In this document: positions 12,532-28,458 of the stretch, in pieces
Layout: every line of letters begins with the position of its first letter
Numbering within the stretch: the stretch's first letter is position 1
Source of the DNA: a virus
Length of the DNA: 28,458 bases
Virus record (IMG/VR): IMGVR_UViG_3300013118_000173
Coordinates: 1 to 28,458 of that record
Strand: one strand, 5' to 3'
The notes under the pieces: generated by a model
Told to the model about the DNA's origin: nothing
Database searches by the model: none
The model's input: only the letters and a program-made list of their open reading frames with translations
Program-made: the position numbers and the translations under genes

Positions 12532-12549
12532 GATTTAAATAATTAATCT
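12532..12549 (-). promoter_or_regulatory. Late promoter-like element, copy 3 (neck/tail unit)
   Basis: On the minus strand this reads AGATTAATTATTTAAATC. It differs by one base from copy 2 (19124-19141). It overlaps the stop codon of the HNH gene and is about 90 bases before the stopper gene. The TTATTTAAAT core resembles an archaeal TATA box. Confidence 0.6.
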
Positions 12550-13036
12550 AAATATTTGGATTATGATGTGCTTTCATATGTTCTGAATGTGAATTAAACA
12601 ATTCTAAGTTATTTAACTCGTTATTTAACGGATTGTTATCTTTGTGATGAACGACTTCTTTAGGTTCTAAAAATCGTCCTATGTGTTTTTCCATTATGAC
12701 TCTATGCTCTCTCACATATCCTTGAGAGTTTGCATGAGGATGTCTTGGCATTAATAACCAAATGTAACCGTTATGTTCTAATTTGCCCGGAGATATTTGC
12801 CTTTTAGTTTTGGTTCGCCAAAGCCCATTGTTGTACATATTACGATAAGTTGTGTCTGGACGCTTTCTTCCAACATTAACTTTATTGCCCTTTTGAAAGC
12901 CCTTTAAGTGACTAGGTTTGCCTTGTTTCTTCTTATTAGCCCAGTAACATGTGTATGAGCAAAATTTTGCTTTGTTGATTCTTGCAGGTTCGACTCGAAA
13001 GCTCTTACTGCATTGAACACATTGTTTTGTTGCCAT
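12548..13036 (-). CDS. Free-standing HNH homing endonuclease with N-terminal zinc finger
   Basis: The 162-residue protein has a zinc finger (C6, C9, C26, C30 in CVQCSK ... FCSYTC) followed by a basic linker and an HNH nuclease of the type common in phages: GYIWLLMPRHPHANSQGYV, then REHRVIMEKHIGR, VVHHKDNNPLNNELNNLELF, with H130-H131, N142-N143 and H150 in SHSEHM. It is inserted between the adaptor and stopper genes, which are normally adjacent, and has its own leaderless-type promoter, so it is a selfish gene rather than a virion component. Its target is probably in the neighbouring neck genes of related viruses lacking it; that is inference. I see no intron boundary around it. Confidence 0.85.
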   Translation of the reverse strand: MATKQCVQCSKSFRVEPARINKAKFCSYTCYWANKKKQGKPSHLKGFQKGNKVNVGRKRPDTTYRNMYNNGLWRTKTKRQISPGKLEHNGYIWLLMPRHPHANSQGYVREHRVIMEKHIGRFLEPKEVVHHKDNNPLNNELNNLELFNSHSEHMKAHHNPNI

Positions 13037-26196: not shown

Positions 26197-26333
26197 TTCT
26201 TCCTCACCGTCTCTTTCATATTTTTTAAACGTTCTTGCTCGATTTTAACCCTACAAGCAGGACAAACCTTAGGACGTTTAAATCTTTGTTGTAAATCTGC
26301 AAATTGATTCCTACATCTTTTACAGAAAGGCAT
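26184..26333 (-). CDS. Tiny zinc-ribbon protein (49 aa)
   Basis: Its ATG shares one base with the terminase stop (TAATG), giving tight translational coupling. The protein, MPFCKRCRNQFADLQQRFKR then PKVCPACRVKIEQERLKNMK, has two CxxC pairs (C4, C7, C24, C27) and a basic helical tail, the form of a nucleic-acid-binding zinc ribbon. The end overlaps the Sm-like gene by 13 bases. A cofactor of DNA packaging or a transcription regulator are both plausible; the coupling to the terminase favours the first. Its high Cys/Lys/Arg order makes a chance ORF unlikely. Confidence 0.7.
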   Translation of the reverse strand: MPFCKRCRNQFADLQQRFKRPKVCPACRVKIEQERLKNMKETVRKKWSK

Positions 26334-28458
26334 TACCACATCACCACGACTTCTTTATTTGCAGACCAAACAAAATAAACTAGGCAATCTGCAAAATCTG
26401 GGCTCTTATCTTCAGGGTCAACTATTTTAATCTTTTCGCTTAAAGTCTTGTCCCACTTCATTTTCATTAACTCAGATCTTAAAGTGATGTTGTTAGGTAT
26501 GTCAACCCTTTTCTCAACCATCAAATTTTGTAACCTAAAGTATTGTTCTGCTTTTTTATTCATAAAGCGTTTCCTGCTAGAAGTTGGTAACTTGGCTTGC
26601 ACAGTAGTCGCTTCTTCGGGAGCTTCTCCAAAGTGACACGCGTTTACTTGGATGATGCCATCAGGATATATCTCATTCAAACGACTCACTATGCCTGCAC
26701 CTATACCTATACAATCAACATTAATCTTAGCCACATCTTCCTTTTCATCAACTAACCTAACAATGCGGTTTACTATTTGCATATTGTCACTCTTAGGTTC
26801 ATGATAAACATATTCAACTTTAAACAAGCCATCCGATTCATGACCATACATAATAACAGTAAAATCCAAACCTTTATCGCTAGGATCACAGGCAATTATG
26901 CCATCTCCTCTAGAAAGAAAGTTATTTTCTATTGCATTATTGATGTCTTTTAACCGAAATAAACTATCTTCAGCTTCAGGTGGAAAAACACTTTCATATA
27001 AAACTGTAAACTCAATAGGCGTTAATTCATCTCTCATCTCGTCTATAAAGGTCTCTGTCACTCTACCTTCTTCAATAGCAGTTTTATAACCAACATGAAT
27101 CACTAAAAATCTGCCAGAAACATAATGATCATAATATTTATTATCCATATCCCATGGGTTAGCTAACTCTATCAAAACACTATTCTCAGGGTCATCTCCA
27201 AGCATTCTAACTATTTTAGCATAAGCTTCTCTACTTATTTTAGCGCTCTCATCACAATTATGTGTTAGAAAACCATTTACAAAATAATTATTATTGTTTG
27301 CTATCTCTAAATTATAGACATATTTGTCTTTTGTGTTGACACTTTTAATTGATTTGATAGTAGCGATTTCCACATTTCTCTTTTGTAATTTGTTCTTGTG
27401 TGACAGCTCACACAAAGAGTTATTAGATTGTTTTCTTGAGAATTGTTTTTGTCGTAATCTATATGATGAACACAAAGCTTTCCAGTTTTCCCACAAAGAA
27501 AACACACATTTCCATCTCTTTTTTTGATTTTTCTCTTTAGTTTTATATTGAACTCTGGAGGCCAAGGAAGATTTCCTATCCCTCCCCTCCATACAGGATT
27601 GCCCTCCATTAGCATTTTCTCTGAATGACCTCTGTTCGCACACTTTCTTGAACAATATTGTCTCGTGTCTTTCATTGCAGGAATTACCTTTAATTGCTTT
27701 CCACAATATACGCATGAAATCAAAAAACGTTTTTTTTCTTGCTTTTGGATATTCTGCGAACGACAAATTACTGAACAGAACACTCTTTTTTTCTTTGTGT
27801 TTGGATCTACATAAAAAGAACTTCCACATTCTTTGCACAATATTTCTTTCTTGCCACCTCCCCACATAGGATTTTTTTCTCCTTTCTGCCAGTCTCCTCT
27901 GCATTTGTGACTGCAAAAATTTAAGTTCTGATTCTTCTGCCTTTTTATATGGCTCGGTCTCTTGTAAAATGGGGTTCTGCAAATATTGCACATAACTATT
28001 GGCATCTTTCTTAGAAGTCGTTACGCATTTATATATCTTATCGTTCTCCCTTAGTTTTTTAGCGGCAATATAACCTCTTTTTTCCTCAAATACAGGATGA
28101 TTTTCAGTTACTCTAAAACTGCCCAAATTAGTTTCTATTTCTAAAATCTTATCTTTTCTAGCATTCTTAAAATATCTCTTAATAGGTTGATATTCTAATT
28201 TTTGAGTGTCTGTATTATAAGATAAAACTTTTAATTTTAATTTTTTATCAACTATGTTTTTTATATCCTTTTCCCCTTTATTTGTCATAAATCTTTGACC
28301 TTTAGGTACACATATGACAAGATCAGCACCAAATCCCATTAATCTAGTGGCTTCACCATGAGCAGAAATAGTTAATAACTGACAACCATTCTTAAATGTC
28401 CAACGCCTTCTGCTTGTTTCTCGTTTTAATCTTTCAATAGAATTGTCCCGATCTATAT
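26333..28458 (-). CDS. terL: Terminase large subunit, 5' part missing, interrupted by an intein
   Basis: The frame is open to the window edge, so the ATPase N-terminus with Walker A lies outside. Numbering here is from the internal Met at 28339. Upstream of it is QLLTISAHGEATRL. Walker B reads GFGADLVI, intein, C362-D363-E364-S. The motor part continues ELANPWDMDNKYYDHYVSGR (coupling motif). The RNase H-like nuclease domain has D485 (IIACDPSDKG), D542 (INVDCIGIGAG) and D648/D651 (SPDFADCLVYFVW). Host-protein sequence is thus intact after splicing. TerL cuts the concatemer and pumps DNA into the head. Without splicing the Walker B aspartate is moved away from the phosphate site, so packaging depends on the intein. 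A zinc-ribbon gene follows at overlapping start/stop. Confidence 0.93.
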   Translation of the reverse strand, partial: IDRDNSIERLKRETSRRRWTFKNGCQLLTISAHGEATRLMGFGADLVICVPKGQRFMTNKGEKDIKNIVDKKLKLKVLSYNTDTQKLEYQPIKRYFKNARKDKILEIETNLGSFRVTENHPVFEEKRGYIAAKKLRENDKIYKCVTTSKKDANSYVQYLQNPILQETEPYKKAEESELKFLQSQMQRRLAERRKKSYVGRWQERNIVQRMWKFFLCRSKHKEKKSVLFSNLSFAEYPKARKKTFFDFMRILWKAIKGNSCNERHETILFKKVCEQRSFRENANGGQSCMEGRDRKSSLASRVQYKTKEKNQKKRWKCVFSLWENWKALCSSYRLRQKQFSRKQSNNSLCELSHKNKLQKRNVEIATIKSIKSVNTKDKYVYNLEIANNNNYFVNGFLTHNCDESAKISREAYAKIVRMLGDDPENSVLIELANPWDMDNKYYDHYVSGRFLVIHVGYKTAIEEGRVTETFIDEMRDELTPIEFTVLYESVFPPEAEDSLFRLKDINNAIENNFLSRGDGIIACDPSDKGLDFTVIMYGHESDGLFKVEYVYHEPKSDNMQIVNRIVRLVDEKEDVAKINVDCIGIGAGIVSRLNEIYPDGIIQVNACHFGEAPEEATTVQAKLPTSSRKRFMNKKAEQYFRLQNLMVEKRVDIPNNITLRSELMKMKWDKTLSEKIKIVDPEDKSPDFADCLVYFVWSANKEVVVMW
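27257..28312 (-). mobile_element. Intein at the Walker B motif of TerL (352 aa) with out-of-frame endonuclease gene
   Basis: The intein runs from C10 (CVPKGQRFMTNKGEKDIKNI, block A) to N361, before C362. Block B is SFRVTENHPVFEEKRGYIAA (with H81). The C-terminal blocks are DKYVYNLEIANNNNYFVNGF and LTHN followed by Cys. Splicing residues Cys1, His-Asn and Cys+1 are intact. Between about residues 112 and 322 the intein frame reads a basic, Ser/Lys/Arg-rich sequence with no recognised fold, because this DNA codes the HNH endonuclease in another frame (27307-28005). So it is a mini-intein of about 140 functional residues with a spacer of about 210. Confidence 0.9.
27307..28005 (-). CDS. HNH homing endonuclease in a +1 frame inside the TerL intein
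   Basis: The 232-residue protein has three zinc-finger-like modules (C6-C9 with C31-C35; C57-C60 with C77-C81; C98-C101 with C118-C122), then WPPEFNIKLKRKIKKRDGNV, and the HNH ribbon: CFLCGKTGKLCVHHIDYDKN, NNLITLCVSCHTRTN, with H180-H181, N193-N194, H202 and zinc Cys at 168, 171, 198, 201. It is complete and looks active. An in-frame TAA at 28021-28023, six codons before ATG 28005, separates it from anything upstream, so it needs its own initiation; no strong ribosome binding site is visible (AAGAAAG precedes the ATG). Its last 20 codons overlap the start of the intein C-terminal splicing segment in the other frame. Confidence 0.85.
   Translation of the reverse strand: MPIVMCNICRTPFYKRPSHIKRQKNQNLNFCSHKCRGDWQKGEKNPMWGGGKKEILCKECGSSFYVDPNTKKKRVFCSVICRSQNIQKQEKKRFLISCVYCGKQLKVIPAMKDTRQYCSRKCANRGHSEKMLMEGNPVWRGGIGNLPWPPEFNIKLKRKIKKRDGNVCFLCGKTGKLCVHHIDYDKNNSQENNLITLCVSCHTRTNYKREMWKSLLSNQLKVSTQKTNMSII

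Follow-up and report, generated by a model that had tools for sequence, protein, structure and literature searches.

A terminase large subunit intein with a putative homing endonuclease encoded as a separate, overlapping gene in the +1 frame

The DNA analysed here, referred to as the window, is the whole 28,458-nucleotide stretch of the IMG/VR virus record IMGVR_UViG_3300013118_000173 (positions 1 to 28,458). The last 2.1 kb of the window form a single unbroken frame for the terminase large subunit (TerL), running from 28456 to 26333 on the minus strand, within which lie an intein and, out of frame with it, an HNH endonuclease gene. The features of the locus are:

26333..28456, minus strand: TerL precursor frame, with its 5' end cut off by the window edge
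28313..28456, minus strand: N-extein fragment, its last residues (LMGFGADLVI) being the Walker B strand
27257..28312, minus strand: whole intein, 352 aa from Cys1 to Asn352, with a penultimate His
28025..28312, minus strand: N-terminal splicing half (IntN), blocks A and B, TENH
28021..28023, minus strand: TAA stop of the HNH frame, 5 codons before the HNH ATG
27307..28005, minus strand: zinc-finger HNH endonuclease gene, out of frame (+1), 232 aa, ATG start, TAG stop
27901..27990, minus strand: zinc ribbon 1 of the HNH protein (C6 C9 ... C31 C35)
27763..27837, minus strand: zinc ribbon 2 (C57 C60 ... C77 C81)
27640..27714, minus strand: zinc ribbon 3 (C98 C101 ... C118 C122)
27388..27519, minus strand: HNH nuclease core (C168 C171 H180 H181 N193 C198 C201 H202; Pfam HNH at 168-206)
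27257..27373, minus strand: C-terminal splicing half (IntC), blocks F and G, THN at its end
26336..27256, minus strand: C-extein, starting with Cys+1, then the DE of Walker B (CDESAK)

The C-extein matches the terminase large subunit family PHROG_2 (E = 6.5e-14), and the intein site is the Walker B strand, split as LMGFGADLVI / CDESAK. An intein-less allele is present in a homologue (L036, 73% identical) that matches both Terminase_6N and PHROG_2 and in which the same region reads GFGANLVI-CDESAK without interruption: LMGFGANLVICDESAK. A separate IMG/VR contig (L035) carries the same locus with 1 mismatch in 2875 nt and supplies the TerL start that is missing from the window, giving an intact ORF of 813 aa.

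The TerL frame contains a complete intein, although protein splicing itself is inferred. Block A at its N-terminus has Cys first (CVPKGQRF) and scores above the TIGR01445 cut-off, and the two splicing halves match the intein models Pfam Intein_splicing (E = 1e-16), TIGR01445 (1.4e-8) and TIGR01443 (6.8e-5). The TxxH of block B is TENH, with T69 and H72 invariant in A3, and the C-terminal THN is followed by Cys+1 at the junction with the C-extein. AlphaFold models the Hint halves with a pLDDT of ~90 and the linker between them (residues ~99-311) with ~38. The best PDB match of the predicted Hint domain is the Mtu RecA intein (3ifj, E = 7.4e-7), and this part also resembles the solved RecA, DnaE, DnaB and NrdJ inteins. 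No endonuclease domain was found in the intein frame, where the linker is without any recognisable domain.

It is in the +1 frame that the linker DNA encodes a nuclease. The HNH catalytic residues are intact (H180/H181, N193 and H202) and are accompanied by three C4 zinc ribbons, and the predicted structure of the protein has a pLDDT of 83. An earlier note, made from the sequence alone, had claimed that an HNH endonuclease lies in the +1 frame inside a TerL intein whose own frame is free of stops, and that the HNH frame is closed upstream by a TAA. Both claims held: across the HNH ORF there are 0 stops in the TerL/intein frame and 19 in the third frame, and the TAA lies at 28023-28021. Its estimate that random DNA would give about one stop per 21 codons must be corrected to ~1 per 13 codons here, and its statement that the HNH core ends where the C-terminal splicing domain begins held only in part, since the core ends before that point and the last ~22 HNH codons overlap the C-terminal splicing region.

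Among TerL inteins, searches for this frame relation gave 12 distinct cases (counting L117 and L121 as separate members), and in 12 of 12 the HNH frame was +1 relative to TerL. They include Gordonia phage Clown gp5 (L047/L109) and Synechococcus phage S-EIVl (L048), both annotated in their records simply as terminase, as well as metagenomic kin of S-EIVl (most of L116-L126) and the sequences L055, L091, L111 and L130. IntN and IntC were detected in the TerL frame of every member by a profile search, the profile having been built from members of the set. The intein positions differ among members, but none is more than a few residues from the acidic pair of Walker B. Because two phage isolates share the design, metagenome assembly error can be excluded as its source. 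In Escherichia phage BUCT618, the TerL contains an intein with no recognisable out-of-frame nuclease.

Double coding of this kind leaves a simple signature. In phase +1, a stop arises in the host frame only if a nuclease codon ends in T before AA, AG or GA. At these risk sites the 12 overlapping TerL members had T in 0 of 586 cases, compared with 593 of 1541 elsewhere (Fisher p ~4e-101, bearing in mind that the 12 members are not all independent), whereas 19 control HNH genes, 18 of them free-standing and 1 fused in frame, had T at 656/1302 risk sites and 1113/2023 other sites. Synonymous shuffling of the window HNH gene, with protein and codons fixed, produced 17.3 +/- 2.7 host-frame stops and never fewer than 8 in 20,000 shuffles, against 0 observed. 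Chance openness of the intein frame is ruled out by the shuffles together with the control genes. The avoidance of T and the shuffling results indicate that translation passes through the intein frame and that selection keeps it open, in line with the earlier proposal that selection had removed stops from the second frame.

The two frames are constrained in different ways. Pairwise dN/dS among relatives, where estimable, was 0.11-0.15 in the HNH frame, as against 0.77-1.39 for the same DNA read in the intein frame; these are rough values, as the NG86 method ignores the overlap. This contrast identifies the HNH as the frame that is kept as a protein, while the linker is free to be anything without stops. 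The sequence statistics thus show an HNH frame under purifying selection and an intein frame selected only to remain stop-free, a division that the AlphaFold confidence of the Hint halves, the linker and the HNH protein also fits.

The same arrangement occurs outside terminases. In Vibrio phages 1.194.O and 1.088.O (L162:2593-5295 and L163), the intein interrupts a helicase at its DECH box, and the nuclease, encoded out of frame in +1, is a zinc-finger DUF559 protein; T is found at 0/54 and 0/53 risk sites in the two. This result rests on two of ~25 records in the set. As a side observation, Staphylococcus phage CUB-EPI_14 (L168:2462-2944) has an out-of-frame +1 HNH in a DNA-cytosine methyltransferase, with T at 0/53 risk sites and no intein seen. 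It resembles the ShiLan domain, discussed below, and lies outside the actinobacteriophages.

The common +1 phase can be explained without common descent, because only in this phase can every stop be avoided synonymously. In phase +1, a host stop is never imposed by two adjacent residues of the nuclease, while in phase +2 it is unavoidable wherever Met precedes Ile, Lys, Met, Asn or Thr, and every overlapping intein nuclease tested contains at least one pair that is forbidden in phase +2. Only one +2 case came to light, in the Mantra methylase, and its HNH contains no forced pair. In the HNH tree, the overlapping genes fall into three groups: the window group; S-EIVl, Clown, L091, L111 and L130; and L055. 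A single origin of all overlapping HNHs was considered and is not favoured, the AU test rejecting a single clade at p = 0.0012, with the caveat of long branches and a weak backbone. L125 is an overlapping duplicate of L117 despite its "free" label in this tree, and the fractured L056 and L037 are likewise labelled as free.

Several other states were found at the same host motif. In L056 and L037, TerL is split into TerL-N plus IntN and IntC plus TerL-C, with a separate HNH ORF between them. These fractured relatives show no stop avoidance (T at 43/77 risk sites in L056 and 36/61 in L037), and the HNH of L056 is sister to the overlapping HNH of L055 (support 100/96). L120:943-3518 is also a fractured TerL with split intein halves and has a different ORF between them, which looks GIY-YIG-like by eye only, without confirmation from Pfam. 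In the distant relative L011 (4005-7610), TerL apparently has two inteins, the first carrying an in-frame HNH. L031 and L032 are relics in which 600 and 531 nt, both multiples of three, have been deleted inside the HNH with the host frame kept, and L036, L045 and L046 are empty sites with no intein. The relatives L056 and L037 and the kinship with L055 lend good support to the earlier suggestion that the overlapping design is intermediate between ordinary inteins and fractured genes, and a link is plausible, but the direction of change is not shown. Separately, the uvsW-type helicase of Salmonella phage STP4-a (L166:2314-5040) has the look of a fractured gene: it is split into two ORFs, the break carries an intein half, and a further ORF lies between them.

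Divergence along the locus points to mobility. Since double coding slows synonymous change in the overlap, IntN and not the HNH is the fair comparison with the exteins; the S-EIVl group is an exception, its HNH frame extending without stops over IntN too. Between L117 and L121, pS is 0.72 for the exteins and 0.16 for IntN; for L003 against L004, the C-extein approaches saturation (pS 0.94), while IntN and HNH stand at 0.51-0.58. The two Vibrio inteins are ~96% identical in nucleotide sequence and their exteins 76-78%. That the intein is less diverged than its exteins indicates horizontal transfer between diverged genes, as homing would bring about; cleavage and homing themselves are inferred. 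L003 and L042 were also observed to be 89% alike in nucleotides over the HNH segment and 71% over IntN, so that the nuclease segment may sometimes be exchanged alone or may be held back by double coding.

The reading we consider likely (probability roughly 0.78) is that a mobile intein occupies the Walker B motif of a phage TerL and that its homing endonuclease is a separate, overlapping gene, with splicing, expression of the nuclease and homing all inferred. The whole TerL frame would be translated as one precursor, for which the machinery is present. The Hint halves would then join across a disordered linker of ~210 residues, itself merely what the HNH gene yields when translated in the wrong frame, and the intein would excise itself to leave a working TerL. 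The same message would also be read in the +1 frame from the internal ATG at 28005 to give the zinc-finger HNH protein, which would cut intein-less terL at or near the Walker B site, with repair copying in the whole intein. Both frames are kept, the HNH by purifying selection and the intein frame by avoidance of a third-position T before AA, AG or GA, and this last step is shown by the sequence statistics. Were stops to be tolerated and the halves to splice in trans, a fractured gene such as L037 or L056 would result, while loss of the nuclease through deletions in multiples of three would leave a mini-intein such as L031 or L032.

Three points count against this reading. The evidence is computational only, and out-of-frame HNHs of the ShiLan type, which occur without an intein, mean that an HNH need not work with a splicing element. 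In addition, there is no Shine-Dalgarno (SD) sequence upstream of the HNH ATG at 28005, although most genes of this phage have a GGAGG-like site ~8 nt upstream, and no internal sigma-70 promoter for the HNH above chance. Nor was an SD found at the likely HNH starts of the relatives examined. An SD-driven start at a later ATG (27867, MWGGGKK) was considered, with AAAGGAG 11 nt upstream, but was rejected as it is not conserved in L003 and L004.

These start signals leave some room for programmed +1 ribosomal frameshifting, which would produce a TerL-N/IntN/HNH fusion that splices in trans or acts as the nuclease. The missing SD sequences are in favour of this alternative, as is an HNH frame open far upstream over IntN in S-EIVl, L117, L091 and L047. 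Against it, the TAA five codons before the ATG in the window leaves almost no room for a shift, the initial Met is aligned in all four members of the window group, and no slippery site was identified, making it unlikely. The position of this TAA and the aligned Met of the window group are also what make internal initiation without an SD the preferred reading; this route of expression is inferred and remains unproven, and frameshifting is still possible, above all in the S-EIVl group with its HNH frame open over IntN. It was also observed that in L048:2590-2900, L117 and L121 the HNH frame is open and alike for ~100 codons further upstream over IntN, and the nuclease there may be longer, overlapping the splicing domain itself.

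The remaining alternatives fare worse. The HNH could be a decaying passenger without current function, with only the intein mattering, and the relics L031 and L032 do show that nuclease loss happens. The low dN/dS and the conservation of the HNH residues and most zinc ligands across the aligned members make this very unlikely. A role for the HNH in packaging and not in homing is suggested by its position in terL and by the frequent role in packaging of HNH proteins that neighbour terminases (Kala 2014, cited in PMC12613952). This too has very little to recommend it, given that the HNH is absent from L036, L045 and L046 and deleted in L031 and L032, that the carrier intein spreads between diverged genes, and that the analogous Vibrio element sits in a helicase.

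Indel errors in an ordinary intein with an in-frame HNH are all but excluded as the source of the two frames. The earlier note had named two observations that would refute its reading: indels restoring one frame, and a relative with the HNH in frame. The first was not borne out, since the second assembly agrees with the window, the same phase recurs in divergent members (58% HNH identity), two isolate genomes and the relics, and 0 stops at 586 host-frame risk sites cannot come from sequencing errors. The second exists in the distant L011, the one point for this alternative, but represents a different design and is not evidence of an indel error in the window. Phage group I introns often house HNH genes, but removal of the segment at the RNA level as a group I or II intron is virtually ruled out by the host frame being selected open, by the complete Hint halves that flank the HNH ORF, and by Rfam comparisons, which gave no hit at E<=1 for this region of the window and none at gathering level in 9 member loci.

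The closest published system is the ShiLan domain, an out-of-frame HNH in phage methylases that has no splicing domain (PMC11855218). The authors found no splicing domain of an intein or intron and describe the host gene as dispensable (PMC11855218), and the record of Violet is annotated "HNH endonuclease domain out of frame". Both ShiLan and the window type are stop-free insertions in a phage gene with a zinc-finger HNH in another frame, a patchy distribution and no SD; both have an uninterrupted host ORF over the HNH, and the HNH of Clown matches that of Mantra. They differ in that the window has a complete Hint/intein around the HNH and terL as host, whereas ShiLan is without an intein, and in phase, which is +2 in Mantra and +1 in the window type. 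In fractured genes, as reported by Dassa et al. 2009 (cited in PMC10448857), a split intein is combined with an endonuclease gene that stands alone. There, as in the TerL versions L037 and L056, the endonuclease is its own gene between two intein halves, while in the window the frame of TerL and intein is unbroken and the endonuclease gene overlaps it. Canonical inteins with an in-frame LAGLIDADG or HNH share the Hint domain, the block residues, the conserved host motif and the logic of homing, but in the window the endonuclease is out of frame, which excludes it as a domain of the spliced intein. The homing endonuclease of a group I intron is likewise encoded by a separate ORF inside a self-removing element; removal in the window type is at the protein level, so the second frame must stay stop-free.

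No out-of-frame endonuclease inside an intein was found in the literature searched. The earlier claim that no such intein has been described is not fully confirmed, however, because a precedent may lie in two works that PMC11855218 cites in connection with "overlapping reading frames": Gorbalenya 1998 and a preprint on actinobacteriophage inteins ("non-canonical architecture", bioRxiv 10.1101/2025.01.02.630785).

A bolder reading, which could as readily prove wrong as right, is that these cases belong to a general class of inteins, hitherto unrecognised and defined by a homing endonuclease gene that overlaps them in the +1 frame, with several origins and a place as the link between continuous inteins and fractured split-intein genes. 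Such a class would include at least two nuclease families (zinc-finger HNH in TerL and zinc-finger DUF559 in the helicase), always in the phase from which all stops can be silently removed. The present case shows that an endonuclease gene can invade an intein without in-frame fusion. With overlapping, fractured, in-frame, deleted and empty states all present at one host motif, ideas on how split inteins and fractured genes arose can be tested. The locus is also a natural instance of two-frame coding in which constraint is cleanly divided: amino acids are kept in one frame, and in the other only the absence of stops. Double-coded inteins, listed in current annotation as one large terminase or a "coil containing protein", can be found and verified simply by the codon rule (no T before AA, AG or GA).

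Elsewhere in the window, a free-standing HNH_3 endonuclease gene without a clear SD lies between structural genes (12548-13036, minus strand), and a transglutaminase-like phage protein (1324-2895, minus strand) contains a second, ordinary intein with an in-frame LAGLIDADG-like stretch.
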